NCBI GenBank assembly: GCA_009921265.1
Contig: RFYV01000003.1
Coordinates: 1 to 64,000 of the forward strand
Length of the DNA stretch: 64,000 nucleotides
Direction: 5' to 3'
From: Betaproteobacteria bacterium
GTDB lineage: Bacteria > Pseudomonadota > Gammaproteobacteria > Burkholderiales > Burkholderiaceae_C
A program made the position numbers and the translations under genes. Of this stretch, positions 487-15,111 are shown piece after piece. Under the pieces are notes generated by a model. That model was not told the DNA's origin and did not search any database. It saw only the letters and a list, made by a program, of their open reading frames with translations. Position 1 is the first letter of the stretch, and each line of letters opens with the position of its first letter.

Positions 487-1572
487 TTAAAGGGTAAATC
501 GTGGGTAATCGTCGGTTACCAAAACTATTGCGTAACCATAGATGCGATTCCAAAATTCAATTGTTCCAAGAACAAAGTTCGCAGTTCCCTCTGGATATTT
601 TCCAGTTGCACTTGTGGTGATCCACGCGAAAAAAGTTAGAACAAATGCAATTGCCACGTAGATAATTCCCACAATATAAAGTGGAATTGCGAAGAGCCAT
701 TTAACTAGAGGTAGAACGCGAGATAGCTTTGCGCCACCTTCTATTTCTGGAAGGTCTACCTTGATATTTGGATTCGCTTCAATTGAAGGATATTCATCTG
801 TAAGCAATAAGGCGTAAGCCGCAATTCGCGCATTTAATTCCAGCATTGATTTATTAAAACTTAGAACATAACTTGGATAAACGCCACGAACCAAGAGTGC
901 ACTGTCTTTTTCTCCCATGGTTTGTTTGATATGGGTGGGCATATAACGAATGGCAAAGCCAACGCGTGGATGGTTGGCCAAATTAGGTTCCGAGCCATGA
1001 AAAATCATGACATGGTGCAGAGACATTTGACCTGGTTGAAGAATGATAGGGACCACTTCTTTGGGATCGACTTTGACAGCAATTTCTTGGCCTCTGGAAA
1101 GCAAATTGTTTTCTGCAAACGTATCAATGTGCTGCACCCTTTGATTTTGAGATCCTGGGACAACATTCATACAACCTGATTCAAGTGTGCTTGGTGTCAG
1201 TGCAATCCATGCTGTAATCACATCAACCGATGATAGGCCCCAGTAGTTGCCATCTTGATGCCATGATACGTATGCCTTGTCACCCGCATCTTTTGCAAAA
1301 AACTGAGATGCCCAACAAAAGATATTGGGACCTAAGACGTCTTCGACTGTATCTAAAACTTTTGGGTGTCTAACGATCGAGTTAATCCAAGGAGAAAGTA
1401 GATGCGGTTTTTGGTTGTAACGGCCCGCAATCTTTCCGCCAATTTTGGTTCTGAATTGATCTAAATGAACGTTGAGATTGCTAATTTCATCTGGCGCAAA
1501 TACATCAATAGGTGAGACATAGCCATCTCGTTGGTATTTTTGAATTTGCTCAGAGGATAAAACCTTTGTCAT
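487..1572 (-). CDS. Chimeric ORF: phytanoyl-CoA dioxygenase (PhyH) N-part joined to DUF4389-like C-part
   Basis: Residues 1 to about 230 are a PhyH-family Fe(II)/2-oxoglutarate dioxygenase. The iron ligands appear as H105-x-D107 in SWHQDGNYWG and H192 in FHGSEPN, and R204 in HPRVGFAIRY is the likely 2-oxoglutarate anchor. The part ends at SALLVRG, where PhyH proteins normally continue with a soluble tail. From about residue 231 the sequence instead resembles a DUF4389 membrane protein: a partial first repeat ending LNARIAAYALLLTDEYPS, then PLVKWLFAIPLYIVG, a hydrophobic helix, and a second repeat ending AIVLVTDDYPRFTL. The two repeats align with each other (GVYPSYV.. and GKYPEGT..). DUF4389 proteins are typical of Actinobacteria. 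The fusion point lies near base 885. A true fusion is possible, but a join of two genomes is more likely. Divergent from the IclR gene. Confidence 0.7.
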   Translation of the reverse strand: MTKVLSSEQIQKYQRDGYVSPIDVFAPDEISNLNVHLDQFRTKIGGKIAGRYNQKPHLLSPWINSIVRHPKVLDTVEDVLGPNIFCWASQFFAKDAGDKAYVSWHQDGNYWGLSSVDVITAWIALTPSTLESGCMNVVPGSQNQRVQHIDTFAENNLLSRGQEIAVKVDPKEVVPIILQPGQMSLHHVMIFHGSEPNLANHPRVGFAIRYMPTHIKQTMGEKDSALLVRGVYPSYVLSFNKSMLELNARIAAYALLLTDEYPSIEANPNIKVDLPEIEGGAKLSRVLPLVKWLFAIPLYIVGIIYVAIAFVLTFFAWITTSATGKYPEGTANFVLGTIEFWNRIYGYAIVLVTDDYPRFTL

Positions 1573-1739
1573 TCAATGCTCCAGTTTGATAGATGAAATT
1601 AACATTTAAATATGAAAGTCTAATGCTCGCAGTAAGTTTGGTGTTAATGCATTGGTAGATACCCTGATGGGGGTTTCGCTTGTTCTGCTTTTCGAAATTG
1701 TTATACGATCAAACCTCAATTGATGTAATGTTCTCTTCT

Positions 1740-2552
1740 ATGACGAAAAATAAGTCTAATGTGCATTCCACTCTGACCAAACAATTATCGGGTGCTTTGT
1801 ATGCAGCTCCTGCCCTAGAAAAGGGCTTGGATATTTTGGAGTGCTTGGCGCAGGGTCCTGAGGGTAAAACTTTATTAGAGCTCTCTGAGGCATTAGGAAA
1901 ATCTTCAAGTGAAATTTACCGAATGGTAGAGGTGCTTGCAAGACGCGGTTACATCACGCGACAAGACGATGGTTTTCGATTAAGTTTAAAAATGTTTGAT
2001 TTGGGCAAACAGTTTTTACCATTAAGCGATATCACATCGATTGCCACATTGCATATGCACGAATTGGCTCTGTTAACGAGGCAATCGGTTCACTTGAGCA
2101 TGCACCACGACAAGCGTTTGGTGGTGGTGATATCCGTGCAAACGCCCGAACCTCTGGGCTTTAGTGTTCGACTTGGATCTCATTTTCCCTTTAGAACCGA
2201 TCGCACATCTGCTCGGGTGATTGCTGCATTTCAACCTGCAGAATTACAAAAAAAATGGATTGTTGAGTTGGTTGAAAATGCAAAGCCAACTGTTTTAAAC
2301 CCACGGTTGCTATTAAAAAAATTAAATGAAATACGGTTTAGAGGTTACGAGCAAGTACCCAGCGATACGGTCAATGGCATCACCGATATTGCGTTTCCTA
2401 TCTTTGATGCTTCTCATATGGGGGCAATCGCTTCCATCAATATGCCATATCTGAAACAACGCGATGCTCAAATGACAATTGCGCAATCACGATCGGCACT
2501 CAAAAAAACAGCAGAAACGATTTCAATTTATTTGGGTTCCAATTTGGCGTAG
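1740..2552 (+). CDS. IclR-family transcriptional regulator
   Basis: An N-terminal winged helix-turn-helix (APALEKGLDILECLAQGP through SSSEIYRMVEVLARRGYI) is followed by the IclR effector-binding domain (the RTSARVIAAF region, then a C-terminal DIAFPIFD and GAIASINMPY). IclR proteins bind DNA as dimers or tetramers and respond to small organic acids, often controlling aromatic or organic-acid catabolism. The track ORF opens at a TTG at 1680, with ATGs at 1725 and 1740. I chose 1740 (MTKNKSN) because it gives 270 aa, close to the family norm, though no site has a convincing Shine-Dalgarno. It is divergent from the dioxygenase gene and upstream of the oxygenase island, so it may control either. 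No specific operator was identified. Confidence 0.88.
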   Translation: MTKNKSNVHSTLTKQLSGALYAAPALEKGLDILECLAQGPEGKTLLELSEALGKSSSEIYRMVEVLARRGYITRQDDGFRLSLKMFDLGKQFLPLSDITSIATLHMHELALLTRQSVHLSMHHDKRLVVVISVQTPEPLGFSVRLGSHFPFRTDRTSARVIAAFQPAELQKKWIVELVENAKPTVLNPRLLLKKLNEIRFRGYEQVPSDTVNGITDIAFPIFDASHMGAIASINMPYLKQRDAQMTIAQSRSALKKTAETISIYLGSNLA

Positions 2553-2636
2553 ATGGCAATACCTGTCTCATAAGGGCTTGTTTTATAACGGATTCGTTGT
2601 AAGAATAGCCGTTGACCTTTATATAGGGGAAATGAT

Positions 2637-3029
2637 ATGAAACGCGTCAAAAATAATACTTTCAGCGTACTTTTTTTATTAATGACTTTTTCAACAATGG
2701 TCATGGCAGATGCGTCGCCAGAATCCTTAGGCAAATGTGTGGGCTACATGGTTTATGCCACCTCCATGCAAAAAATGAAGGTTTCTGATTTTTCCAAAAA
2801 ATCACAAAACGTTTTTTCAAAAAATATAGGTAATTTTCAGCGCGACCAAGGTGCAATTACCAAATGCAAACAACATAACGAAACCGAGGCCAAATGCATC
2901 AGCGCCTTACCCACGTCTGCAGACGCTGTATTTTTCAAAAGCGTGATGAATGGCATCAATCAAGGAGGGAAAAATCACGATCCACAAGCCATTATCAAAA
3001 GCACCGACGAGGTTTGTGAAGCCTCTTGA
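2637..3029 (+). CDS. Small secreted four-cysteine protein, unknown family
   Basis: 130 aa. A signal peptide (KR-rich start, hydrophobic FSVLFLLMTFSTMVMA, cleavage after MADA or nearby) precedes a mature part of about 105 residues that is Lys-, Gln- and Asn-rich. It has four cysteines at residues 34, 77, 87 and 127, which could form two disulfides in the periplasm. No family is recognised. A good ribosome site (AGGGGAAATG region) precedes the ATG. The stop lies 19 bases before the Bug receptor start, so the two are probably co-transcribed, but nothing shows a shared function. Confidence 0.6.
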   Translation: MKRVKNNTFSVLFLLMTFSTMVMADASPESLGKCVGYMVYATSMQKMKVSDFSKKSQNVFSKNIGNFQRDQGAITKCKQHNETEAKCISALPTSADAVFFKSVMNGINQGGKNHDPQAIIKSTDEVCEAS

Positions 3030-3048
3030 ATATCATAGGAATCTAATC

Positions 3049-4002
3049 ATGAAATTATTTTTGTCTCTCTGTTTATTTGTAATCAGTATTTCTTTGCAAG
3101 CACAAACGTATCCATCAAAGTCCATTCGTATTGTGGTTCCATTTCCACCAGGAGGTTCTGCGGATTTATTGGCGCGTGCTCTGGGCGAAAAACTCACCGC
3201 ATCCATGGGTCAACCTGTCTTGATTGACAACAAACCCGGTGCAGGTGGTATTCCAGGGGCAGAAGCTGTTGCAAAATCTACAGCCGATGGATATACCTTG
3301 TTGTTTGCCAATACCAATATCGCCATCAATCCCAGTTTGTATCCCAAATTGCCTTATGACACGGCAACAACATTTACACCTGTTTTGTTGTTAGCCTTGG
3401 TACCTTCATTGATCATGGTGTCAGAAAAAACACCTGCAAACAATATTCAAGAGTTGATTGCATTGGCCAAAGCAAAACCCGAAACACTCAACTACGCATC
3501 GGCGGGCAGTGGAACTTTTCCACACTTGGCAATCGAGCTTTTTAAAATGCAAGCTGGTATTTCAATCACGCATATTCCATACAAGGGTGCAGCACCTGCA
3601 CTCAATGCCTTGCTCACAGGTGAAGTGCAAGTGCTTTGTAACGATATGTTGACGGGCTCGCAACACGTTAAATCAGGACGCTTGCGTGCATTGGGTTACA
3701 CAGGAAGCACACGTGCGCCAACCTTGCCGCAAATTCCAACCATGGCAGAAGCTGGTGTTAAAGACTATGTGGCTGTGGGTTGGCAAGGCATCATGGTTCC
3801 TACGGGCACACCCAAAGCAATCATTGATCGACTCAATGCAGAATTTAATAAAGCGCTCACAGATCCAACCTTGCGACAAAATTTATCGGCGCAAGGTTTG
3901 GTCATTAGTGGCGGTACTACTCAACAATTTGCAGAATTTATTGCACAAGATACTGAGCGTTGGCGCGCTGTCGTTAAAGCATCGGGTGCAAAACCAGAAT
4001 AA
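3049..4002 (+). CDS. Bug/TctC-family tripartite tricarboxylate receptor protein
   Basis: Periplasmic solute receptor of the Bug (Bordetella uptake gene)/TctC type, 317 aa. Signal peptide MKLFLSLCLFVISISLQAQ is followed by the diagnostic YPSKSIRIVVPFPPGGSAD and, later, HIPYKGAAPALNALL and SGRLRALGYT. These proteins bind carboxylates or other small acids in a closed cleft and normally feed a TctAB permease. The track ORF begins at 2950, but the ATG at 3049 with AGGA upstream places the signal peptide correctly and avoids overlap with the upstream gene. The Rieske oxygenase begins 21 bases after the stop, so this receptor probably captures the oxygenase substrate or a related acid. No tctA or tctB is present in the window. 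Confidence 0.92.
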   Translation: MKLFLSLCLFVISISLQAQTYPSKSIRIVVPFPPGGSADLLARALGEKLTASMGQPVLIDNKPGAGGIPGAEAVAKSTADGYTLLFANTNIAINPSLYPKLPYDTATTFTPVLLLALVPSLIMVSEKTPANNIQELIALAKAKPETLNYASAGSGTFPHLAIELFKMQAGISITHIPYKGAAPALNALLTGEVQVLCNDMLTGSQHVKSGRLRALGYTGSTRAPTLPQIPTMAEAGVKDYVAVGWQGIMVPTGTPKAIIDRLNAEFNKALTDPTLRQNLSAQGLVISGGTTQQFAEFIAQDTERWRAVVKASGAKPE

Positions 4003-4023
4003 AAATTTCAGTAAAGGACAAAA

Positions 4024-5307
4024 ATGCTGAGTAGAGAAGATAACAATCGTTTAACGCAAGTCGGGCCCGATACACCCTTGGGTCGCATGATGCGACGTTA
4101 TTGGCATCCGATTGCCACATCCGCAGAATTACCCAAGCCCGATTGCAAACCCATGCGAGCCAAATTATTGGGTCAAACCTTTGTGGCTTTCAGAGATACG
4201 AGCGGAAAAGTAGGCGTGATGGATGAGTTGTGCACGCACCGCGGTGCATCCATGGCGTTGGGGCGCGTTGAAGATGGAGGCATTCGTTGTATCTATCACG
4301 GATGGAAATTTTCTGTTGATGGCACGATATTGGATATGCCCAACAATGCAGACTCTACTTTTAAAGATCGATTAAAAGCACCCGCATATCCTGTTGTAGA
4401 AGTGTCGGGTTTGATTTGGACTTATATTGGTGACGCAAACAAAAAACCTCCCTTTAGAAGGTTTGCATACGATGAAGTACCCGATAGCAATCGAATTTTA
4501 TTTAGAGTCAATACCAGTGCTAATTTTTTTCAGATGTGGGAGGGAGGTACCGATTCTTCGCACGTGGGTATCTTGCACAGCAACCTCACGCGACCTGGTT
4601 GGCTCAAAGAAAACCATGGGGAAACTGCATTAGAAGTAAACGATATGGTGAGCGATGCGTGGGACGATATGTCTCCACAACTTGATATCGAAAATACGGC
4701 ATTTGGCTTTCATTACGCCAGCATTCGAAAAATTGGTGGGCCACAAGCCCGAAACAATGTTCGCCTCGTGCCGTTGTTTGAGCCTTATGGACGAGTGATT
4801 CAATTTCCTGATTTTTTTACCACCGTCTATGATGTGCCGATGGATGACGAGAACACGGCCACTTATTTGATTGATGCAAGCTTTTCACGCAAACTCGATT
4901 TGCAAGAAAGACTCAAACGCTCTGGCATGACCGAAGAACGTTTTTACAAAGACAACACCTTTGTCGCCAATTGGGATAACAGCTATTGGCAAGATCGCGA
5001 TGCGATGGAGAAAAGAAAAAATTGGAGTGGCTTTAAAGGCATCACACAAGAAGATGCAGTTATTTCAACGTCAATGGGCCCCATCTACGATCGAACACAA
5101 GAGCATCTGGTTGCGGCAGATGCAGCGGTTGTGCGCTTACGAAAGAGACTCATGGACTCTATCAATCTCAATGAGAAGGGTGAAGATCCGATAGGCCTTC
5201 ATTTGCAAGACATGACCAACGTGATTGGTTTTGATGTGGACATGCCTGATGGAAAAATATGGCGTGAGTACGCGCATCAACAAGGTTTGCACAAGGGTGA
5301 AAAATAA
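4024..5307 (+). CDS. Rieske non-haem iron oxygenase, alpha subunit (phthalate-dioxygenase-like)
   Basis: 427 aa aromatic-ring hydroxylating oxygenase. The Rieske [2Fe-2S] ligands are C70-x-H72 (CTHRGAS) and C89-x2-H92 (CIYHGWKF). The mononuclear iron site is D177-x2-H180-x4-H185 in DSSHVGILH. The domain order and the start MLSREDNNRLTQVGPDTPLGRMMRRYWHP match the phthalate 4,5-dioxygenase / oxygenase-reductase type that has no beta subunit. It would hydroxylate or demethylate an aromatic acid in the cytoplasm, using electrons from a flavin/ferredoxin reductase. No such reductase is encoded nearby, which is unusual. The stop overlaps the ATG of the next Bug gene (TAATG), indicating one operon. 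The substrate cannot be deduced. Confidence 0.93.
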   Translation: MLSREDNNRLTQVGPDTPLGRMMRRYWHPIATSAELPKPDCKPMRAKLLGQTFVAFRDTSGKVGVMDELCTHRGASMALGRVEDGGIRCIYHGWKFSVDGTILDMPNNADSTFKDRLKAPAYPVVEVSGLIWTYIGDANKKPPFRRFAYDEVPDSNRILFRVNTSANFFQMWEGGTDSSHVGILHSNLTRPGWLKENHGETALEVNDMVSDAWDDMSPQLDIENTAFGFHYASIRKIGGPQARNNVRLVPLFEPYGRVIQFPDFFTTVYDVPMDDENTATYLIDASFSRKLDLQERLKRSGMTEERFYKDNTFVANWDNSYWQDRDAMEKRKNWSGFKGITQEDAVISTSMGPIYDRTQEHLVAADAAVVRLRKRLMDSINLNEKGEDPIGLHLQDMTNVIGFDVDMPDGKIWREYAHQQGLHKGEK

Positions 5308-6308
5308 TGAACAATAAAATGAATGCACGCGTTTTATCGCGCCGCCATTATTTAAAGCGGTCCGTAGCAGCGTCATTGATTGTGTCTGCTCCATTTGCAT
5401 TTGCTGCAGATGACAAGTACCCATCCAAGTCCATCAAGATGTTGGTTGGTTTTCCTCCTGGTGGTGCGATTGATTTAATTTCGCGATCGGTTGCAATTGA
5501 AGCGTCTAAAAAACTGGGACAAACGATCGTTATTGAAAATCGATCAGGCGCCAGTGGCACGATTGCATACAACGCACTCAAAAATTCTCCCTCCGATGGC
5601 TACACCCTTGCGCCTGTCACGATCACCGCATTTCGTGCGCCTGTGATTGAAAACGTCACCTTCGATCCGTTGCAAGATTTTGATTATGTGGCGGGTATCA
5701 CTGATATTCCATTTGGTGTTGTTGTTAAAGAAGATTCACCGTTTAAAACATGGGCTGATCTTTTGGCGTGGGGTCGCGCTAATCCTTCACAAATGATGTA
5801 TGGCGCGGCGGCAGGTTTGGGGAACACATCACATTTGTTTGTTGAAGAAGTCGCAGCAAAAGAAAATCTAAAGTGGACGCCTGTTCCATTTAGAGGAACA
5901 ACCGATTGCATGCAAGCATTACTCAGCAGTCAAATTGTTTTTACAGTTGATACCATTGCGGGCACTTCGGGACTCATCAAGGGCGGAAAGGTTCGTATCT
6001 TGGCCGTTGCAACCGATGCACGCTTACCCAGTTGGCCTCAAATACCCACCATGCGAGAGCTGGGATCTGCCATATCGGTCAATAACCTATGGGGCATTGC
6101 AGGACCCAAAGGCTTGCCCACTTCTGTGTATCAAACCCTAGAGGCTGCATTCAAATTTGCGATGGAGCAACAAAGCGTCATTGCGTTGCTTCAAAGTGTT
6201 GAGCAAAAGTCTTTGTACACGGATGGTAAAACATTTAGAGCGTTTGCAGAGCGTTCGGTTAAAGAGCAAAAAGAGGTACTTACTAAATACGGTTTTGCGA
6301 AAAAATAA
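5307..6308 (+). CDS. Bug/TctC-family receptor with twin-arginine-like signal
   Basis: 333 aa periplasmic receptor. The N-terminus MNNKMNARVLSRRHYLKRSVAAS contains SRRHYLK, close to the Tat consensus SRRxFLK, followed by a hydrophobic stretch and AFAAD cleavage site. The core has KYPSKSIKMLVGFPPGGAID and the family's later blocks (VPFRGTTDCMQALLS, GGKVRILAVATD). The ATG overlaps the oxygenase stop and has AGGGTG upstream; a second ATG four codons on is an alternative. It is the second receptor of the same operon. The usual PYKG in the ligand-binding loop is replaced by PFRG, suggesting a ligand different from that of the receptor at 3049. Confidence 0.92.
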   Translation: MNNKMNARVLSRRHYLKRSVAASLIVSAPFAFAADDKYPSKSIKMLVGFPPGGAIDLISRSVAIEASKKLGQTIVIENRSGASGTIAYNALKNSPSDGYTLAPVTITAFRAPVIENVTFDPLQDFDYVAGITDIPFGVVVKEDSPFKTWADLLAWGRANPSQMMYGAAAGLGNTSHLFVEEVAAKENLKWTPVPFRGTTDCMQALLSSQIVFTVDTIAGTSGLIKGGKVRILAVATDARLPSWPQIPTMRELGSAISVNNLWGIAGPKGLPTSVYQTLEAAFKFAMEQQSVIALLQSVEQKSLYTDGKTFRAFAERSVKEQKEVLTKYGFAKK

Positions 6309-6317
6309 AAAACACGC

Positions 6318-6767
6318 ATGATGGAATCACATTCGCTCAATTGGTCCGATGAATGGTTGCTAGGCTATACGCCAATGGACCAAGAACATGAAGAATTTGT
6401 TAAACAAATAGCATGCATGCAACAAGCCAATGAAACCGAATTACTGGGTCTGCTTGACTCTTTTTATCTTTTGGCCAAGCAGCATTTTGAAGCTGAAAAT
6501 AATTGGATGACGCAAACGCAATTTCCGCCGCGTGATTGCCATATCGATGAACACAATGCGGTGCTTCGTTCGATCGAAGAAGTCCGCCAACTGTTATCTG
6601 TTGGGCGTGTTGATGTTGCTCGTTCGCTCGTGGCTGAATTGGTAAATTGGTTTCCAGGGCATGCCACGCATCTTGACTCAGCACTCGCACATTGGATGTT
6701 TAAACAAAAAAATGACGGTAAGCCCGTTGTAATTCGACGAGGTCTAAATTTTGAAAAAACCAGCTGA
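6318..6767 (+). CDS. Bacteriohemerythrin-like di-iron O2-binding protein
   Basis: 149 aa single-domain hemerythrin. All seven canonical di-iron ligands are visible: H24 (MDQEHEE), H56-x3-E60 (HFEAE), H75-x3-H79 (HIDEH) and H115-x4-D120 (HATHLD). Such proteins bind O2 reversibly in the cytoplasm and can deliver it to oxygenases or act as sensors; here there is no attached signalling domain. It starts 9 bases after the Bug stop, and its end overlaps the DUF3500 gene by 17 bases, which suggests translational coupling. Sitting in an operon with a Rieske oxygenase, an oxygen-supply or oxygen-buffering role is a reasonable inference but is not shown by sequence. Confidence 0.9.
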   Translation: MMESHSLNWSDEWLLGYTPMDQEHEEFVKQIACMQQANETELLGLLDSFYLLAKQHFEAENNWMTQTQFPPRDCHIDEHNAVLRSIEEVRQLLSVGRVDVARSLVAELVNWFPGHATHLDSALAHWMFKQKNDGKPVVIRRGLNFEKTS

Positions 6768-8154
6768 TTTTCGACCTTCTGTTCCAACGTTGGAGTATCC
6801 ACGCGTTGCTGCATTTCAAGGGCGCGACGCATTTGATCATGCAAAGGCAGGTTTATCGCATCCCATATTTTCTGAGATGCTTTATAAACCGTGGGAGGCC
6901 GCGTACGCCCAATCCTTTCGTGGCATCACCACCGACGGTCATGTTATGCACGGATTGTTTTCATTGGGTCAACACGGTGCGCCTGTGGTTGCAATGCGCC
7001 AAGCAGTCGGTTATTTGTGGGAACAATTGTCCTCTGATGAACGTCAAGCGTTGAGCTATGCAGTTGACGCGCGTGAATGGCGCAGATGGAACAACACCGA
7101 ATATTATGTGTATCAACAAGGTTTGCGTTTGGAGTTGGTGTCGCCCGCTGTGCGTCAATTGATACTCGATGTTTTAAAAGCAAGCTTGAGTGAAATTGGT
7201 TATCAAAAAACGCGTGACGTCATGCGCTTAAATCATTTTTTGGGTGAACTCACCAACAACACCAAGGTGTTGGGTGAATGGAGTTTTAATTTCACCTTGT
7301 TTGGTTCTCCATCCGATACTGAACCTTGGGGTTGGCAAGTGATGGGTCATCATTTGGCGCTCAATTGTTTTGTAGGAGGCGGACAAATGATTTTGTCACC
7401 AGCATTTATGGGGGCTGAACCCACCTATGCTGATGTTGGCCCTTGGGCAGGTACACGTTTATTTGAAGCCGAAGAGAGTGGTGGTTTAGAGGTGATGCGT
7501 TCGCTCACACCATTTCAGCGCGATCAAGCGGTGTTATTTGCGTCTAATTTAGCCAAAGATTTGCCCGAGGGTCGCAGACACCGCGCCGATCAATTGCATT
7601 TGGGTGGCGCTTTTCATGACAATCGAATCATTCCACTCGAGGGTTTGTGTTGCAATCAATTGTCGTTGGAGCAAAAAAAGAAATTGCTCGATTTGGTGAA
7701 AGTTTTTGTAGAGCCATTACCAGAAGGCCCACAAAAAGCCCGATTAGAAGAAGTTGAAAAACACATTGATGCCACTTATTTTTGTTGGATCGGTGGATTT
7801 GGTGAAGACGATACGTTTTACTATCGCATTCAAAGTCCTGTGGTGATGATAGAGTTTGATCATCACTCGGGTGTTTATCTCGCCAATGAATTGCCCGCCA
7901 AATTTCATATACATACCATTGTGCGCACACCTAATGGCAACGACTACGGCATTGATTTGTTGCGACAGCATTACGCACAAAGTCATCACCAAGAAAGTAA
8001 ACCTGGCGATCATGGCGGTCATGTGGGGCATACCTACCCGCATTCGCACCTGGATTCCCATTCACACAACTTCAGTCATACGCATGATGGACACACCCAC
8101 CATCACTTGCATGATCACTCCAACGATCACCCACCAAACAAGGACAAAAAATGA
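6751..8154 (+). CDS. DUF3500 protein with histidine-rich C-terminal tail
   Basis: 467 aa. Residues about 45-400 match the DUF3500 family pattern (GYQKTRDVMRLNHFLGEL, LGEWSFNFTLFGSPSDTEPW, GHHLALNCFVGGGQ, GAFHDNRIIPLEG). The biochemical function of the family is not established to my knowledge. The last 50 residues are extremely His/Asp/Ser-rich (HSHNFSHTHDGHTHHHLHDH), a pattern typical of metal storage or metal delivery tails. The start is a TTG at 6751 with GAGG eight bases upstream; the next in-frame Met is near residue 43 and would cut conserved-looking sequence. It overlaps the hemerythrin gene upstream and the Bug gene downstream (ATGA), so all three are tightly coupled. No signal peptide is visible. 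A metal-dependent enzyme acting with the oxygenase is a hypothesis only. Confidence 0.8.
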   Translation: MKKPADFRPSVPTLEYPRVAAFQGRDAFDHAKAGLSHPIFSEMLYKPWEAAYAQSFRGITTDGHVMHGLFSLGQHGAPVVAMRQAVGYLWEQLSSDERQALSYAVDAREWRRWNNTEYYVYQQGLRLELVSPAVRQLILDVLKASLSEIGYQKTRDVMRLNHFLGELTNNTKVLGEWSFNFTLFGSPSDTEPWGWQVMGHHLALNCFVGGGQMILSPAFMGAEPTYADVGPWAGTRLFEAEESGGLEVMRSLTPFQRDQAVLFASNLAKDLPEGRRHRADQLHLGGAFHDNRIIPLEGLCCNQLSLEQKKKLLDLVKVFVEPLPEGPQKARLEEVEKHIDATYFCWIGGFGEDDTFYYRIQSPVVMIEFDHHSGVYLANELPAKFHIHTIVRTPNGNDYGIDLLRQHYAQSHHQESKPGDHGGHVGHTYPHSHLDSHSHNFSHTHDGHTHHHLHDHSNDHPPNKDKK

Positions 8155-9137
8155 AACATTCATCGCAAAGACGCAAACTTGTCTTATCTGCTGCATTAGG
8201 CGCGCTTGTTTTACCCACAGCATGGGCGCAAAAACCAAAATTTCCCAATCGCGTTGTCAAGATGGTTGTTCCCTCAACACCAGGAGGTGGCCCCGATTTT
8301 GTCGGTCGCTTGGTTGCGCAAATGCTAAGTGTCAAATGGGGTCAAAGTATCATTGTTGAAAACCTTGCAGGCGCGTCTATGCAATTGGGAACCAACTCGG
8401 TTGTCAAAGCGATGCCTGATGGACATACGGTTTTATTCACGCCACCCACGCCGATCACTATTGCAAATTTTTTTGAACCTAAGCCGCCGTATGAAGTGAA
8501 CAAAGATTTAGTCACTGCTGGTTTGATGGGCCGCAATCCTGCTTTGATTGTGATTAATTCACAGGTTAAAGCTAATACCATGAAAGAATTTATTGCCTTA
8601 GCCAAAAAAGAAAAATTATTTTATGCGTCTCCTGGTCAAGGCCATGCGTTTCAACTCACCACAGAAATTATTTGTACCAAAGCAGGCATTCACATGACCC
8701 ACGTTCCCTACAAAGGCAGTAGCCCTGCGGTGATGGGGTTGATTGGTGGCGAAGTACAGTTTTTAGTTCAATCAACCGAGGCAGTCAAAGAGCACATCAA
8801 AAGTGGCCGCTTGCGTGCATTGGCAACGCTAGAAAATACAAGACTTGAAGCGTTTCCAGATGCGCCTACATTGGCAGAATCAGGTTTAGAAAATCTGGGA
8901 ATTATGAATTGGTATGGTTTATTTATGCCCATTGCAACGCCCAAAGATATTTTGGAATTTTGGGAAAGTGAATTGCAAGCGTTATCCAAAGATCCTGGAT
9001 TTAGAAAAAAAATGTTCGACATGAGTTTTGATCCTGTTTTTTATGGAACACAAGATTTTCTAAGCATCATGCAAAAAGAGCGCATGCAATGGCGTGATGT
9101 GATTGCTTCAACACAAGTTCAAACCAAGAAAGAGTAA
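8151..9137 (+). CDS. Bug/TctC-family receptor, third of the island
   Basis: 328 aa. The start MKHSSQRRKLVLSAALGALVLPTAWAQ is a signal peptide with a paired arginine (Tat-like, but QRRKLVL is a weak match). The family blocks FPNRVVKMVVPSTPGGGPD, HVPYKGSSPAVMGLIGG and SGRLRALATLENTR are all present. The ATG overlaps the stop of the DUF3500 gene (ATGA), and the SDR gene follows after 3 bases. It is a periplasmic acid receptor without its own permease in the window. Three different receptors in one operon suggest several related substrates, or recruitment as sensors. Confidence 0.92.
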   Translation: MKHSSQRRKLVLSAALGALVLPTAWAQKPKFPNRVVKMVVPSTPGGGPDFVGRLVAQMLSVKWGQSIIVENLAGASMQLGTNSVVKAMPDGHTVLFTPPTPITIANFFEPKPPYEVNKDLVTAGLMGRNPALIVINSQVKANTMKEFIALAKKEKLFYASPGQGHAFQLTTEIICTKAGIHMTHVPYKGSSPAVMGLIGGEVQFLVQSTEAVKEHIKSGRLRALATLENTRLEAFPDAPTLAESGLENLGIMNWYGLFMPIATPKDILEFWESELQALSKDPGFRKKMFDMSFDPVFYGTQDFLSIMQKERMQWRDVIASTQVQTKKE

Positions 9138-9140
9138 AAA

Positions 9141-9923
9141 ATGGATTTAGGAATTAAAAACAAAAAAGCAATTGTTTGTGCATCATCGCAAGGACTAGGC
9201 TTGGCGTGTGCCACGGCATTGGCACGTGAGGGGGCTATTGTTTATATCAATGGACGTGATGTAACGCGTTTGGAAGCTGCCAAAGCTAAACTATCAAACA
9301 CGGTTGCGAGTGCACAGGTTCATATCGTAGCTGCTGATATCACCACCGAAAAAGGCAGAGAAGCATTAGTCAATGGGTGTCCTGATGCAGATATCCTCAT
9401 CAATAACAATGCAGGTCCACAACCAGGCAATTTAGCAGACTGGGATCACTCCGCGTGGATGGTTGCTCTAGAGTCCAACATGTTGGCGCCTATTTTGCTC
9501 ATTCGTGCGTTGATTCCTGGTATGCGTCAAAGAAAATTTGGACGCATCGTTAATATCACCTCCGCTATGGTTAAAAGTCCAAGAACACACATGGGTTTGT
9601 CAACATCAGCGCGCACAGGTCTGACAGCTTTTTCTAAGGCAGTCGGTATTGATGCCGTGATTGATAACGTTACGATTAATAATTTATTGCCTGAGCGAAT
9701 CGATACACCCAGGCAAGAATTTTTAGCGCAGCGAATGATGAAAATGCACAGTATTGATCACGCAGAGGCCAGGCGTCGAATTGTTGAAACGGTTGCGGCT
9801 AAACGATTTGGAACACCTGAAGAATTTGCTGATGCGTGTGCGTTTTTGTGTGCCGCTCAATCGGGTTTTATTTCAGGTCAAAATTTGCAACTCGACGGCG
9901 GTTCTTATTCTGGTTTGATTTAA
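9141..9923 (+). CDS. SDR-family oxidoreductase lacking the usual Tyr-x3-Lys
   Basis: 260 aa Rossmann-fold short-chain dehydrogenase/reductase. The nucleotide loop reads ASSQGLGLACA in place of the usual TGxxxGIG, the NAG motif is present (INNNAGP), and the C-terminus has FISGQNLQLDGG. The region that normally carries Ser...Tyr-x3-Lys reads NITSAMVKSP then MGLSTSARTGLTAF, with no tyrosine. Members of this subgroup, often annotated as FabG-like, share the replacement, so either another residue serves or the enzyme is atypical. It is sandwiched between the Bug gene (3-base gap) and the MFS gene (start immediately after its stop). A role in oxidising a diol or hydroxy-acid intermediate made by the oxygenase is inferred from position. 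Confidence 0.85.
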   Translation: MDLGIKNKKAIVCASSQGLGLACATALAREGAIVYINGRDVTRLEAAKAKLSNTVASAQVHIVAADITTEKGREALVNGCPDADILINNNAGPQPGNLADWDHSAWMVALESNMLAPILLIRALIPGMRQRKFGRIVNITSAMVKSPRTHMGLSTSARTGLTAFSKAVGIDAVIDNVTINNLLPERIDTPRQEFLAQRMMKMHSIDHAEARRRIVETVAAKRFGTPEEFADACAFLCAAQSGFISGQNLQLDGGSYSGLI

Positions 9924-11063
9924 ATGCCGATTTACCTCATTGCACTGCTTTGTGTTTTTAATCACAGTTGTTTCGGTGGCAGTCGCATGGCGATTGCACT
10001 CTATGCACTCGATTTAGGTGCATCTCAGTTTGATGTGGGTGTGTTGATGGCCTTTTACGCTTTGTTTCCCGTTTTTTTAGCGATATGGGTGGGCAAACTG
10101 GTTGACAGGATTGGACCCCGAAACCCAATGATGTATGGAAGTTTGGGCGTTGGATTGGCAACTTTATTGCCGTCTTTTTTTCCAAGCTTGGCTACTTTGT
10201 ATTTTTGTTCATTATTGATTGGTTTTTCTTTTCATTTTTTCTTTATTGCAGTTAATGGCGTGAGTGGTGGAATTGGAGGGCCAGAAAATAGAACCAAAAA
10301 CTATGCCGTGGTCAGTATTGGTTTTTCAAGTGCTGCTTTTTTAGGACCATTTACCACTGGGTTTGCGATCGATCATTTTGGTTTTTTGACCGCTTTTCAA
10401 TTTTTATCGGCGCTTACATTTGTGCCTTTTTTATTGCTGTTACTTAAGCCTGATTTTCTACCAGGCCCCAACAAGCAAAGTAGCGATCGATCTAAAAATA
10501 AAATCACAGATCTATGGAAAATACCGCAACTGCAAGGCGCTTTTATCGCAAGTGGAATTTTATCGTCAGGACTTGATTTATTTCAATTTTATTTTCCTGT
10601 GTATGGCCACTCGATTGGTTTGTCTGCTTCCATCATTGGTACTGTTATGGCGTGCTTTGCAGTGGCAACTTTTAGTGTGCGTTTGATCATTCCCTATTTT
10701 GTTAAACATTGGGGAGAAGCTGTCATCTTGATGTACGGCATTTTTATTGCAGCGTTTGCAATCGCACTGTTTCCATTTTTTGCCAATCCTTGGATTCTGG
10801 GCATGATTGCATTTGTTTTGGGTCTGGGCTTGGGCAGTGGCCAGCCAATGTCGATGTCACTCATTTATGTATTGGCCCCCGATGGGCGTTCATCAGAGGC
10901 TGCAGGACTTCGAATCATGATCAACAACATGGTTCATTTTTCATTCCCGTTGGTGTTTGGAGGACTCGGCACTGCTTTGGGATATTTCCCTGTCTTTTTG
11001 TCGAATTCTGCATTGCTCATGTCGGGAGCTGCATTTTTAAAAACAAAATACAATAAAAAATAA
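9924..11063 (+). CDS. MFS transporter
   Basis: 379 aa with about 12 hydrophobic helices. The N-terminal half carries LVDRIGPRNPMMYG, the loop 2-3 motif of the major facilitator superfamily, and the second half carries GLGLGSGQPMSMSLIYVLAP. It resembles the small-molecule MFS group of drug or metabolite carriers with 12 helices. The ATG directly abuts the SDR stop codon, so translation is very likely coupled. Uptake or efflux of the island's substrate is the natural inference; direction and substrate are unknown. The gene is AT-rich with long T runs from its Phe- and Leu-rich helices. Confidence 0.88.
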   Translation: MPIYLIALLCVFNHSCFGGSRMAIALYALDLGASQFDVGVLMAFYALFPVFLAIWVGKLVDRIGPRNPMMYGSLGVGLATLLPSFFPSLATLYFCSLLIGFSFHFFFIAVNGVSGGIGGPENRTKNYAVVSIGFSSAAFLGPFTTGFAIDHFGFLTAFQFLSALTFVPFLLLLLKPDFLPGPNKQSSDRSKNKITDLWKIPQLQGAFIASGILSSGLDLFQFYFPVYGHSIGLSASIIGTVMACFAVATFSVRLIIPYFVKHWGEAVILMYGIFIAAFAIALFPFFANPWILGMIAFVLGLGLGSGQPMSMSLIYVLAPDGRSSEAAGLRIMINNMVHFSFPLVFGGLGTALGYFPVFLSNSALLMSGAAFLKTKYNKK

Positions 11064-11083
11064 ATTAAATAGGTTTCAACGAA

Positions 11084-11635
11084 ATGCCACTCTCAACACC
11101 ACACGCGCGCAAACCGATTCATGATCGCAAAATTCATATGCAAGCCTATCAAAGAGATGATGGCTTTTATGATATTGAATCGCATTTGGTGGATACCAAG
11201 CCTTATCCCTTTAAACGTTTTTTGGCAACTGAGCCTGCCCCACCGCACACACCGTTGCATGATTTATGGATTCGTTTTGTTTTGGATGAAGACTACGTTG
11301 TTCAATCCATTGAAGCTGCTTCTGACGTGACGCCTTTCCCGATTTGTAAAGAGGCTGAAAATACATTGAAGGTGTTGATCGGTGAGCGCGTGGGTTCGGG
11401 CTGGTCAAAGATGGTGAAAGAAAAACTACGCGGTGTGGCCAGTTGTACTCATTTGGCTGAGATGTTGATACCGATGGCAACAACAGCGCTTCAAGGAATT
11501 CGTGGCCTCAAATTGGGCGATTTTTTGAATACAAAAAGTGAAGGCAAGCCTAGACATCTGAATAGTTGTTATGCCTATGCGGAGCACCGCGATGTGGTGC
11601 TCAAGATTTGGCCTGAATATCATCGAAAAAATTAA
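11084..11635 (+). CDS. DUF2889-family protein
   Basis: 183 aa cytoplasmic protein. MQAYQRDDGFYDIESHLVDTKPYPF, then LHDLWIRFVLDEDYVVQSIEA and FPICKEAENTLKVLIG, match the DUF2889 family, whose role is unknown. It has two conserved-looking Cys (ICKEA and ASCTHLAEML). The family often neighbours aromatic or heterocycle degradation genes in Burkholderiales; I state that from general familiarity. It follows the MFS gene by 20 bases and closes the operon. Its end meets the end of the Bug gene on the other strand, with the two stop codons overlapping. Confidence 0.82.
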   Translation: MPLSTPHARKPIHDRKIHMQAYQRDDGFYDIESHLVDTKPYPFKRFLATEPAPPHTPLHDLWIRFVLDEDYVVQSIEAASDVTPFPICKEAENTLKVLIGERVGSGWSKMVKEKLRGVASCTHLAEMLIPMATTALQGIRGLKLGDFLNTKSEGKPRHLNSCYAYAEHRDVVLKIWPEYHRKN

Positions 11636-12621
11636 TCCGCCTTCACACCCGCACTTTTAATAATTCGCGCCCACTTTGCAGTATCAGCTCTCAAATACTC
11701 CGCAAATTTTTCAGATGAACTGGTAAGTGGATCCATTCCTTGTGCGGCCAGCTGTTCTTTCCATTTTTCATTGGTAAATAATTTTGCGGTTTCACGATTG
11801 AGTCGCTCAATCAAATCGGGCGTCGTACCTTTGGGTGCCATCAAACCAAACCAAACCGACGCTTCAAAACCTGCGAGGCCAGATTCTGCAACGGTTGGTA
11901 ATTCAGGCGCAGAGGCTGTGCGTTGTGCACCCGTGGTAGCCAATGCCTTGAGGCTACCCGCCTTGATGTGTTGAAGCACAGAAGAGGTTGGCGCGAACAT
12001 CACCATCACGCGACCTGCAATCAAATCCGTCACCGCTTGAGGACTGCCTTTGTAGGGCACATGCATCATTTGAATATCAGCCATGTTGTTAAATAATTCT
12101 GCGGCAAGGTGAGTGCCTGTTCCATTGCCTGATGATGCGTAAACAACAGAACTGGGTTTTGATTTTGCAAGTGCAATGAGTTCTTGCACCGATTTAACGT
12201 TAACCGATGGATGAACCACCAACAAGTTGGGGACGCTAGCTACAATTCCAATGGGTGCGAAGTCGCGCAAGATATCAAAATTCGCGCTGGGCATCAAGGT
12301 GGCGTTGATGGCGTTTGCCACCGTTGTTAAAAGAAGTGTGTAGCCGTCGGGTGCAGAACGCGCAACAGCGTCAGCGCCTAAATTACTTCCCGCGCCCGGT
12401 CTGTTTTCGATGGTAATTGGTTGTCCGAGGCTTTCGCCTAAGCGAGTTGCTAGCAGGCGGGCAAGGACGTCAGAAGAGGCACCAGGCGGAAAACCTACAA
12501 CCAGCTTGATGGGTTTGTTAGGATAGTTTGAATTGCTCTGTGCCCATAGGGACGTGCTTGTTGCGCAAATGGCAATCACGACCCATAACAATGAACGGCA
12601 TAAGAATTGAACTTGTTGCAT
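11632..12621 (-). CDS. Bug/TctC-family receptor
   Basis: 329 aa from the ATG at 12621, which has GGAGACAGC directly upstream; the track's earlier ATG at 12654 lacks a ribosome site and would put a charged stretch before the signal peptide. The signal peptide is MQQVQFLCRSLLWVVIAIC..LWAQ, then YPNKPIKLVVGFPPGASSD, HVPYKGSPQAVTDLIAG and AGSLKALATTGAQR. It is a periplasmic organic-acid receptor. It is convergent with the DUF2889 gene and divergent from the alpha/beta hydrolase gene, with 91 bases between the two starts, so it may share a control region with the hydrolase rather than belong to the oxygenase operon. Confidence 0.92.
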   Translation of the reverse strand: MQQVQFLCRSLLWVVIAICATSTSLWAQSNSNYPNKPIKLVVGFPPGASSDVLARLLATRLGESLGQPITIENRPGAGSNLGADAVARSAPDGYTLLLTTVANAINATLMPSANFDILRDFAPIGIVASVPNLLVVHPSVNVKSVQELIALAKSKPSSVVYASSGNGTGTHLAAELFNNMADIQMMHVPYKGSPQAVTDLIAGRVMVMFAPTSSVLQHIKAGSLKALATTGAQRTASAPELPTVAESGLAGFEASVWFGLMAPKGTTPDLIERLNRETAKLFTNEKWKEQLAAQGMDPLTSSSEKFAEYLRADTAKWARIIKSAGVKAD

Positions 12622-12712
12622 GCTGTCTCCTATCTGTCTACTGTGTGTGCTCATTTTTGTCGATGCGTTGTTATAGTAGCCTAAATTTCAATCAATTTCA
12701 CGGGAGACGCAC

Positions 12713-13636
12713 ATGATTGACAACATCGCTTACAAAGAACCCTTGGTGGTTGGCAAAGAGCATTGGACTAGCAAGGGAGATGTCAAACTTTTTATTTGGG
12801 AAAAAAAGCGCCATCCATCGACCAACTATCGCGGCACCATTATTTTTAACCATGGATCTTCATGGTGTTCGCAACCCTCTTTCGATTTGTACGTGCCAGG
12901 GCGGCCTTATTCGTCGGTGATGGATTGGTTTGCAGCGCAAGGCTTTGATACCTGGTGCTTTGACAATGAGGGCTATGGTCGATCCGACAAATACCGCCCG
13001 ATAAACTTTGGTATTGATAACGGCGCAGATGATTTGGCTTGCGTGATGGACTATGTATTAAAAGCCAGTAGCTTAAAGCAAGTGATGTTGTATGGCATTT
13101 CTTCGGGTGCACTTAAAGCAGCTGTGTACACGCAAAAGCATCCAGGAAAAGTATCTCGATTGGCGCTCGATGCGTTTGTGTGGACGGGTGAGGGCAGTCC
13201 CACATTGGTTGAGCGAAGAAAAAAATTACCCGAGTATTTGGCTTCCAATCGCAGGCCATTTACGCGTGAAGTGATTCAAAGCGTATTCGATCGCGATCGG
13301 CCCGGTACCGCCGAGCAAGTGATGATTGATGCATTTGCAGACGCATCGATGGCATTGGATACAACAGTGCCTACAGGTACTTATGTGGATATGTGTTCTA
13401 AGTTGCCGATGGTGGACCCTACCAAGGTGTTGGTACCTACCATTGTGATGCGTGGTGAGTATGACGGTATTGCAGGTGTAGACGATTTGATCGATTTTTT
13501 TAGGGGACTGCCCCATGCCGACAAACAATTTGTTTGCATGCCAGGCGTTGCGCATGCCAGTTTTCAGCAGACCAATTATTTGTTGGTGTATGAAACCTTG
13601 TTGGGATTTTTTGGCAGAGTCAAACCAGTTTTTTAA
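12713..13636 (+). CDS. Alpha/beta-fold hydrolase
   Basis: 307 aa. The order of motifs fits the alpha/beta hydrolase fold: oxyanion region FNHGSSWCS, FDNEGYGRSD, nucleophile elbow YGISSGALKAA, acid in MRGEYDGIAG, and catalytic His in MPGVAHASFQ. No signal peptide is seen, so it acts in the cytoplasm. The family covers esterases, C-C bond hydrolases of meta-cleavage pathways and lactonases; the sequence alone does not decide. GGGAGACGC lies before the ATG. Being next to the oxygenase island, hydrolysis of a ring-fission product or an ester is plausible. The stop faces the DsrE-like gene with a 3-base gap. Confidence 0.85.
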   Translation: MIDNIAYKEPLVVGKEHWTSKGDVKLFIWEKKRHPSTNYRGTIIFNHGSSWCSQPSFDLYVPGRPYSSVMDWFAAQGFDTWCFDNEGYGRSDKYRPINFGIDNGADDLACVMDYVLKASSLKQVMLYGISSGALKAAVYTQKHPGKVSRLALDAFVWTGEGSPTLVERRKKLPEYLASNRRPFTREVIQSVFDRDRPGTAEQVMIDAFADASMALDTTVPTGTYVDMCSKLPMVDPTKVLVPTIVMRGEYDGIAGVDDLIDFFRGLPHADKQFVCMPGVAHASFQQTNYLLVYETLLGFFGRVKPVF

Positions 13637-13639
13637 ACC

Positions 13640-14062
13640 TCAAGGCTTGATGTACGCATAGCCTTCTTTGGATTGCAGTCTTCCTACTCTCACTACGCCC
13701 GAGGGTGTAAAGTCTGCATCCATAATAAATTGCTCTTTTTTGAGATTTCTATTTTTAAGCGTAATCTCACACACTTCAAATTTAACTTTTCTGGCTTTGA
13801 GTGCTGACACTAAGGACGCGTAATCAATACTTGGATTATTTTTATCTTTAGCGCCTTCCATTAAAAAATCAACACCGTCTGCATGCGTGACTACAACAAT
13901 TTCTGTGTCAGGTGCAACGTCTAAGTGGTTGCGAATGTTGCGCAGTCCTTTGGTTGCTTGCGCAGCCGCATTGTCAATGTGATAGACCACTTTGTCCGCT
14001 TGTGCCCACGTGAGGGTGCTAGTGAATAGACAAATAGCAACGAGGAAATTTTTGATTGACAT
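13640..14062 (-). CDS. Periplasmic DsrE/DsrF-like protein
   Basis: 140 aa. Signal peptide MSIKNFLVAICLFTSTLTWAQA, then KVVYHIDNAAAQATKGLRNI, IVVVTHADGVDFLMEGA and VKFEVCEITLKNR, the pattern of the DsrE-like (DUF1791) group found widely as exported single-domain proteins. Cytoplasmic DsrE proteins relay sulfur through a conserved Cys; here one Cys lies in FEVCEITL at the expected place. Its exact role is not known. It is transcribed toward the alpha/beta hydrolase and follows the membrane protein gene by 23 bases, so those two may be one unit. Confidence 0.75.
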   Translation of the reverse strand: MSIKNFLVAICLFTSTLTWAQADKVVYHIDNAAAQATKGLRNIRNHLDVAPDTEIVVVTHADGVDFLMEGAKDKNNPSIDYASLVSALKARKVKFEVCEITLKNRNLKKEQFIMDADFTPSGVVRVGRLQSKEGYAYIKP

Positions 14063-14085
14063 GGGATGACCTTGGTTAAAAAAAA

Positions 14086-15036
14086 TTATAAAAAAACAAC
14101 TTGTAATAATGTATCAAAATGAAAGCCACGCAAAATAAAATGGTGAATGTGAGCGGAAATGCGGTACCAAGTTAATTCTGCGTGCACACTCCAGTTGACA
14201 AAGGGATACAGAACAGCGTGTGACTGTTGCAACTGAGGTGCCAAAACTTCTGTATACGTTTTTGATAGTGCCAATCGATGGGGAATCAACCATGTGCCCA
14301 ATATGATCGCCAAAGACAAACCACTTACTGTGTATCGTCTGATCCAAATCTTGAGTTTGTTTTTGGATCGCAAATATTGCATGATCAACAAAGCCACGCA
14401 TTGCGCCAAATTGAGCAAACCAAAAAATGAAGATAAAGCCAATGTGATGGGTGGCGAGATGAGATTGCGATAAGCTTTATTCAAGGTTTCTTCAGAAAAA
14501 ATGGAAATCCATTCTTTTTTAACAACGAGTGTTTTGTCATAGGGCGCATCGAGATCGCTGGGTTGCAAGCCCAAACCCAAAACAGGAAATAAAGCAAAGA
14601 GTGTTTTTTCTTCGGGTTCATCAATAGGGTTGATCAAAATCGCTTGACCCTGCAAACGCAATTCACCACTTGCAGCCAATTTGGCCAATGGCAGCAATTG
14701 AATACTCATTTGTTTGTCGCTGATACTGGCACGCGCCACCAATTGATCCAAAATAACTTGTTGAAAATTCCACATGGCACTCATGCCCACAATCAAACTC
14801 AATAAAACTGCAATCCAGCGTTGATCCATGTGCATGTCTAACCAGCGCACAATTAGCATCGAGAGACCAAACCCTGCTATTAAACGCCCCCAAGTTTGTA
14901 AGCCATCAAATTCAGATTGAGACAGGGAAGCGCCCGCAGACTCCAATAAGCGGTGATTAAAAGACAATTCGATCAGCGCATAAAGGCCAACGATACAGGC
15001 AAAGGCAAATGAATAGTGAAGGGGTTGGCGTTTCAT
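14086..15036 (-). CDS. Multi-pass membrane protein, unknown family
   Basis: 316 aa from MKRQPLHYSF; the track starts 12 codons earlier at 15072, but the positive MKRQ start right before the first membrane helix is more natural. Five hydrophobic segments are visible, near residues 6-26, 48-63, 72-90, 200-228 and 240-260. A long loop of about 100 residues between the third and fourth (containing LAASGELRLQGQAILINPID) is likely outside the membrane. No motif is recognised. It lies upstream of the DsrE-like gene and divergent from the M14 peptidase. Confidence 0.6.
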   Translation of the reverse strand: MKRQPLHYSFAFACIVGLYALIELSFNHRLLESAGASLSQSEFDGLQTWGRLIAGFGLSMLIVRWLDMHMDQRWIAVLLSLIVGMSAMWNFQQVILDQLVARASISDKQMSIQLLPLAKLAASGELRLQGQAILINPIDEPEEKTLFALFPVLGLGLQPSDLDAPYDKTLVVKKEWISIFSEETLNKAYRNLISPPITLALSSFFGLLNLAQCVALLIMQYLRSKNKLKIWIRRYTVSGLSLAIILGTWLIPHRLALSKTYTEVLAPQLQQSHAVLYPFVNWSVHAELTWYRISAHIHHFILRGFHFDTLLQVVFL

Positions 15037-15111
15037 TCTTACATTGTTACAGACGTTTTCATCAAAATACAATAAGATAACTCTAACCCTACATGCCAGT
15101 TATGCTTGTTC

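Follow-up and report, generated by a model that had tools for sequence, protein, structure and literature searches.

The described systems closest to the gene cluster treated here are degradative plasmid operons, a fungal ring-opening pathway and a solved structure from natural-product biosynthesis. The cluster consists of nine plus-strand genes at 3049–11635 of the window, that is, the whole 64,000-nucleotide stretch of Burkholderiales contig RFYV01000003.1 that was analysed. Open reading frame (ORF) and Pfam analysis gives, in this order 3' of an IclR regulator gene, a Bug/TctC periplasmic substrate-binding receptor (Bug1), a Rieske oxygenase, a second receptor (Bug2), a hemerythrin, a DUF3500 protein, a third receptor (Bug3), a short-chain dehydrogenase/reductase (SDR), a major facilitator superfamily (MFS) transporter and a DUF2889 protein.

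The phthalate-type operon of Polaromonas naphthalenivorans plasmid pPNAP04 (L097) and related plasmids (L099, L100) shares with the window a hemerythrin–Rieske–Bug operon whose Rieske protein is of the same broad clade. Unlike the window, which has DUF3500, an atypical SDR and DUF2889 instead, pPNAP04 carries in the hemerythrin neighbourhood its own 4,5-dihydroxyphthalate decarboxylase, VanB-type reductase and Gfo/Idh/MocA dehydrogenase. The decarboxylase, the VanB-type reductase and the Gfo/Idh/MocA dihydrodiol dehydrogenase by which an oph-type phthalate operon is recognised are all absent from window positions 487–16968. On the carbazole plasmid pCAR1 (L096) a 42% identical hemerythrin lies within a run of Rieske, meta-cleavage, hydrolase, ferredoxin, reductase and dmpE/dmpG genes, but the Rieske enzyme is of another type with its own ferredoxin and reductase, meta-cleavage is canonical and there is no DUF3500.

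The fungal 1,2,3,5-tetrahydroxybenzene pathway has the DUF3500 family in common with the window. In Aspergillus nidulans AN10530, a DUF3500 protein and putative dioxygenase, has been proposed to convert 1,2,3,5-tetrahydroxybenzene to 5-hydroxydienelactone (PMC12388069), and PMC13094099 assigns IPR021889 to the ring-opening step of a pathway that "currently seems restricted to fungi" (we take the DUF3550 printed beside IPR021889 there to be a slip for DUF3500). A gallate monooxygenase precedes DUF3500 in that pathway (PMC12388069, PMC13094099). In several of the bacterial relatives compared here a FAD-dependent aromatic monooxygenase adjoins DUF3500. The likeness is at the family level only, and the fungal flavin monooxygenase contrasts with the Rieske enzyme of the window. 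The window cluster has no FAD monooxygenase, hence none of the gallate/protocatechuate decarboxylating type; a FAD monooxygenase is adjacent to DUF3500 in L007 and L035–L038.

Two modules, each of which recurs elsewhere, are put together in the cluster: Bug1–Rieske–Bug2–hemerythrin (module 1) and DUF3500–Bug3–SDR (module 2). As a whole it is not a conserved nine-gene pathway. DUF3500 neighbourhoods were drawn from GTDB contigs, whole genomes and annotated plasmids, and were compared with 20 control regions from genomes of the same collection, nearly all of them DUF3500 carriers. Homologues of DUF3500 (E ≤ 1e-30) are rare. Among 399 genomes of the order 12 have one, and in a phylum sample of equal size 2 do, the window genome being counted in both; in a first-look set of relatives the figure is 10 of 61. 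None of the collected neighbourhoods repeats the nine-gene set; homologues of the MFS and DUF2889 genes lie near 0 of 43 other DUF3500 loci and a hemerythrin near one, and the possible island of the original prediction is therefore rejected as one conserved unit, the full set being present in no other genome searched. What did recur when co-occurrence was followed through other genomes was the Rieske–hemerythrin pair, beyond the window genome, and DUF3500–Bug–SDR. The suggestion that the oxygenase operon is without a characterised counterpart stands, none having been found.

Locus L002 has Bug1–Rieske–alpha/beta hydrolase–Bug2–hemerythrin, then a LacI–Bug–TauD group, then Bug–DUF3500–Bug3, with both modules again within ~10 kb of each other. 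The L002 proteins are 79% (Rieske) and 61% (DUF3500) identical to those of the window, and this inequality suggests separate histories for the Rieske and DUF3500 modules. Two features give the cluster its main interest, the association of DUF3500 with an atypical SDR and the pairing of hemerythrin with the Rieske gene.

DUF3500 and its SDR partner

The DUF3500 protein matches PF12006 with 353.7 bits (gathering score 27.2) and starts at a TTG codon whose position agrees with the starts of relatives. In an alignment of 36 members G-H200-H201, W193/W195, E368-x-D370, H386-x-H388, R392, D398 and H407 are invariant, which is presumably the pattern of a metalloenzyme. The core of its AlphaFold2 model is predicted with confidence (pTM 0.84), whereas the C-terminal tail is disordered (pLDDT < 50). 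The tail, residues 406–467 (window 7966–8151), holds 19 histidines in 62 residues, is present in many Burkholderiales versions and looks like a device for metal storage or metal loading.

Sequence and fold searches of the PDB both lead to a single relative of DUF3500, 9x86 (Amc20/ApmL), which Foldseek aligned to the model with E 5.4e-18 and TMt 0.83 at ~23% identity over the aligned part. By profile alignment 9x86 retains the GHH, ExD and HxH of the window protein; it differs in being without the N-terminal extension, the C-terminal part with D398 and H407 and the His-rich tail, and in belonging to a natural-product pathway, its dehydratase activity being taken from the entry title only. A literature search on Amc20 returned unrelated papers only. 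Two families of the cluster had been counted as of unknown function; given the fungal proposal and this structure, titled as a dehydratase, that is no longer wholly so for DUF3500.

The order DUF3500–Bug3–SDR is conserved in several Burkholderiales genera. Directly 3' of DUF3500 a 60–65% identical orthologue of Bug3 is found in a dozen Burkholderiales loci, and an SDR orthologue (66–78% identical) lies 50–1204 bases 3' of DUF3500 in 11 loci and in L040, and in 0 of the 20 control regions. In L005, L007 and L013, the last of them gammaproteobacterial, the SDR follows DUF3500 with no Bug gene between. The window SDR and all orthologues beside DUF3500 possess SxxxR for the catalytic YxxxK and CASSxGLG for TGxxxGxG, and so are not classical SDRs. 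The closest solved SDRs (5va8, 5idx and 5vps, whose records state merely short-chain dehydrogenase/reductase) also have S..R for Y..K. Because YxxxK and TGxxxGxG are lost, a role as an ordinary dehydrogenase is doubtful for this protein. An SDR with SxxxR and CASSxGLG adjoins DUF3500 in the window, L003–L007, L009, L013, L035–L038, L040 and L043.

Catabolic partners (Rieske, FAD monooxygenase, FAH, LLM, ring-cleavage classes and VanB were counted) lie within 7 kb of DUF3500 at 16 of 25 non-redundant close loci, against 3 of the 20 control regions (Fisher p = 0.002), in a comparison which is partly circular, since several queries came from DUF3500 loci, and which counts the window among the 25; without the four main query-donor loci the figure is 12 of 21. 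The gene immediately 5' of DUF3500 varies. It is a hemerythrin in the window, an extradiol-type gene in L006, L008 and L009, and a FAD monooxygenase, overlapping or abutting DUF3500, in L007 and four relatives (L035–L038). On a Paraburkholderia plasmid DUF3500 is flanked on both sides by FAH proteins, with a Rieske gene in addition, and on a Thioclava plasmid it heads a run with FAH–HpaH–HpcH, a position where a ring-opening enzyme would be expected. Its partners are Rieske and VanB on a Streptomyces plasmid, and a cupin, an AMP-ligase and FAH on a Rhodococcus plasmid. In L050 and L054 the distant DUF3500 clade found in one Burkholderiales family lies beside M32 carboxypeptidase genes and no catabolic ones.

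Rieske oxygenase and hemerythrin

The Rieske protein has its [2Fe-2S] motif, CxHx17CxxH, at residue 70 (CTHRGASMALGRVEDGGIRCIYH), in agreement with the general CxHx(15–17)CxxH. The mononuclear iron-site motif DxxHx4H is at residue 177 (DSSHVGILH); the third ligand, a distal Asp, was not located. A LigXa_C domain (PF19301, E 3.7e-39) is present, and the best PDB match is full-length to 7fjl (E 3.6e-78), which we take to be the phthalate dioxygenase of Comamonas testosteroni KF1 (the record says only Rieske domain protein). By sequence, then, the protein belongs to the phthalate dioxygenase/LigXa clade. Besides the L002 protein its orthologues include those of G808 (66% identity) and Variovorax RA8 (63%), and the close subgroup (E ≤ 1e-100) is rare: of the 399 genomes of the order only the window's own has a member.

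In L002 an 80% identical gene for Bug1 lies immediately 5' of the Rieske gene, and a 79–80% orthologue of Bug2 lies between Rieske and hemerythrin. A Rieske gene with a small hemerythrin, and a Bug receptor in some cases, was also found in a Comamonadaceae metagenome-assembled genome and on Variovorax, Cupriavidus and Burkholderia plasmids; the order in Variovorax RA8, C. basilensis pRK1-2 and B. pyrrocinia is hemerythrin–VanB–Rieske.

The hemerythrin carries the diiron ligand set H24, H56xxxE60, H75xxxH79, H115xxxxD120 and scores 65 bits with TIGR02481 (cut-off 52); a PDB sequence search gave no match. Fifteen distinct plasmid neighbourhoods of homologues of this hemerythrin were examined, in a set biased towards degradative plasmids, and 13 of them have a Rieske gene within ~6 kb. 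These 13 are Variovorax RA8 and WDL1, C. basilensis, B. pyrrocinia, Delftia (two), P. aromaticivorans, pCAR1, Polaromonas, Acidovorax, Comamonadaceae OTU4NAUVB1, Massilia WG5 and M. putida. The exceptions without a nearby Rieske gene are Aquabacterium and a distant fused protein in Azonexus. On chromosomes of the order a Rieske gene is near 3 of 60 hemerythrin homologues and 0 of 34 below 36% identity, and a strict tie of hemerythrin to Rieske genes is thus ruled out for chromosomes. From 13 of 15 on plasmids and 3 of 60 on chromosomes it follows that the pairing characterises degradative plasmids and operons and not hemerythrins at large. The hemerythrin subgroup found beside Rieske genes on degradative plasmids comprises loci L085, L086, L087, L092, L094–L101 and L162.

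We lean towards a functional link between the Rieske enzyme and the hemerythrin. Proposals of O2 supply by hemerythrin exist for methane oxidisers, and by analogy the hemerythrin is a candidate O2 carrier or buffer for the oxygenase. As judged by titles, abstracts and counts, the literature searched holds no paper tying hemerythrin to ring-hydroxylating operons beyond passing mention. With this subgroup lying repeatedly beside Rieske genes, including those of the model plasmid pCAR1, whether these oxygenases have dedicated O2 or iron helpers becomes a question that laboratory strains can answer directly.

Proposed pathway and rival explanations

Our reading of the whole, to which we give a probability of about one half, is an IclR-linked ring-oxidation operon in which a Rieske/hemerythrin step would be followed by a DUF3500/SDR step. 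It is likely that the cluster is a catabolic ring-oxidation operon for an aromatic or cyclic acid, co-transcription and the class of substrate being presumed; the tight packing of the genes, the intact Rieske motifs with 7fjl as closest solved relative and the recurrence of both modules speak for it. Two mobile modules would have been joined here to degrade a cyclic carboxylic acid, aromatic or not, by oxidation. Module 1 would bind the substrate outside the cell and then oxygenate it; the Rieske enzyme would hydroxylate the ring or remove an O-methyl group, drawing its electrons from a reductase whose gene lies elsewhere, and would likely have the hemerythrin as its O2 (or O2/iron) buffer. 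Module 2 would work on the oxygenated product. DUF3500, presumably a metal enzyme on account of its GHH, ExD and HxH, would open the ring (our first choice) or eliminate water, and the SxxxR SDR would handle the product, probably not as an ordinary dehydrogenase. The MFS and DUF2889 proteins would be local additions for transport and possibly coenzyme A (CoA)-ester metabolism.

Several results weigh against this reading. A VanB-type reductase, which related operons carry, was found neither at window 487–16968 nor elsewhere in the genome (a 3.56-Mb assembly, 95.8% complete); the search for a dedicated reductase gave only a partial match of 32 bits, at C125, to a reductase that looks unrelated and has a ferredoxin domain at its N-terminus, the match being to this ferredoxin part. 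The oxygenase would be served either by this C125 reductase or by the product of a gene in the missing few per cent of the genome. To this are added the bias of the plasmid set, the scarcity of Rieske genes beside chromosomal hemerythrins, the partial circularity of the partner comparison and the distant DUF3500 loci, of which 2 of 9 have catabolic partners, without enrichment. The only solved DUF3500 structure is entitled "dehydratase ApmL in Amipurimycin biosynthesis", in conflict with the fungal ring-opening proposal as to the reaction, and in L006 and its close relatives L008 and L009 a glyoxalase-fold extradiol-type gene overlaps the start of DUF3500. These loci lean against ring opening, since DUF3500 may there act after, and not instead of, ring cleavage. 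Ring opening by DUF3500 stays a tentative choice. Its possible alternative, to which we accord only slightly less credence, is a metal-dependent dehydratase (lyase) and no oxygenase, dehydrating a ring diol or a ring-cleavage product of Rieske or flavin enzymes, with the SxxxR SDR rearranging or reducing what results. Such a role would agree with the title and motifs of 9x86, the sole fold match, and with DUF3500 lying beside enzymes that already cleave rings and beside the lyases/hydratases FAH, HpaH and HpcH; yet 9x86 is distant and comes from a sugar-nucleoside pathway, the fungal authors put the family at ring opening (PMC12388069, PMC13094099), and no canonical ring-cleavage gene was recognised near DUF3500 in L035–L038 and L013. 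The gene neighbourhoods tip the balance slightly towards ring opening, because DUF3500 adjoins enzymes of the FAH and HpaH/HpcH types, which normally act after ring cleavage. We consider it unlikely that DUF3500 represents a third structural class of enzymes that open aromatic rings, with a fold of its own in bacteria and fungi, paired in many Burkholderiales with an SDR-fold partner lacking dehydrogenase residues and replacing intradiol and extradiol dioxygenases after Rieske or flavin oxygenases. If DUF3500 does open or dehydrate rings in bacteria, a family annotated so far only as of unknown function would point to unexplored catabolism in bacteria of fresh water and soil and on plasmids, and the tetrahydroxybenzene route, described as confined to fungi, would gain a bacterial counterpart to test.

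The hemerythrin might instead be a sensor of O2/NO or iron, or a detoxifying diiron protein, brought near Rieske genes by shared mobile plasmids and not for O2 delivery. This is possible, if the less favoured view: close chromosomal homologues (46–55% identity) have a Rieske gene nearby in 1 of 5 cases, the others lying near AMP-ligase/metallo-beta-lactamase-fold, efflux-pump or methyltransferase genes, but the protein recurs beside differing Rieske types, on differing plasmid backbones and in differing gene orders. Rather improbable is a chance run of catabolic genes in a Bug-rich genome, with Rieske, DUF3500 and DUF2889 coming from separate pathways placed side by side by accident. In its favour, no genome searched repeats the full set, both DUF3500 and the Rieske subgroup are scarce in the order (12 and 1 of 399 genomes), DUF2889 and MFS do not accompany DUF3500 and the modules of L002 are unequal in identity; against chance stand the gaps of -17 to 21 bases with translational overlaps spanning the module borders, the renewed proximity of both modules in L002 and the catabolic neighbours of DUF3500, more frequent than in controls.

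Gene layout and accessory genes

The original prediction of nine same-strand genes of the named families after an IclR gene was borne out, with intergenic gaps, 5' to 3', of 21, -1, 9, -17, -4, 3, 0 and 20 bases. The IclR gene is indeed upstream (Table 1) but not directly so, a 130-aa ORF with a signal-like N-terminus intervening. This ORF has no Pfam match and no counterpart near other DUF3500 loci, and its membership in the operon is uncertain. The IclR protein, whose top NCBIfam matches (PcaR/PcaU/PobR and BhcR) fall far under their cut-offs, is by its position the probable regulator of the cluster. In a promoter and terminator scan the number of sites was not above that of shuffled sequence.

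Table 1. Genes of the cluster and its surroundings, in window coordinates.
Feature	Position	Strand	Family or remark
PhyH-type dioxygenase with C-terminal DUF4389 domain	487–1572		divergent from IclR gene
IclR-family regulator	1680–2552	+	PF01614, PF09339
130-aa ORF, signal-like N-terminus	2637–3029	+	between IclR gene and first Bug gene
Bug/TctC periplasmic substrate-binding receptor 1 (Bug1)	3049–4002	+	PF03401, 259 bits
Rieske non-heme iron oxygenase	4024–5307	+	PF00355, LigXa_C PF19301
Bug/TctC receptor 2 (Bug2)	5307–6308	+	PF03401
Single-domain bacteriohemerythrin	6318–6767	+	PF01814; TIGR02481 above cut-off
DUF3500 protein	6751–8154	+	PF12006
Bug/TctC receptor 3 (Bug3)	8151–9137	+	PF03401
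Atypical SDR	9141–9923	+	PF00106/PF13561
MFS transporter, candidate substrate importer or exporter	9924–11063	+	PF07690
DUF2889 protein, accessory	11084–11635	+	PF11136
Fourth Bug gene	11632–12654	-	converges on 3' end of cluster
Alpha/beta hydrolase	12713–13636		just beyond cluster

The three Bug proteins match PF03401 at 184–259 bits, their N-terminal signals being judged by eye. They had been listed as part of the set. The same genome has at least 150 Bug/TctC genes (184 first-look candidates), so that three in one catabolic cluster are expected background; as an informative signal on their own they are ruled out.

DUF2889 was found in 58 of 150 genomes of the order. Its plasmid neighbours are CoA-transferase, MaoC, CoA lyase and crotonase-type genes, and the protein is therefore probably linked to CoA-ester metabolism and a local joiner of this cluster. 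It has no PDB sequence match and no fold match at E ≤ 0.001. Cys88, Cys121-Thr-His123 and Cys162 are invariant in DUF2889, and the AlphaFold2 model weakly resembles IscU scaffolds (1q48: probability 0.91, E 0.08, TM 0.33–0.43); a metal or Fe-S binding role is a lead only.

The alpha/beta hydrolase just beyond the cluster has 54–56% identical homologues within 7 kb of DUF3500 in L002 (17084–18172) and L052 (5165–6097), and because of these two further loci it may be a member of the pathway.

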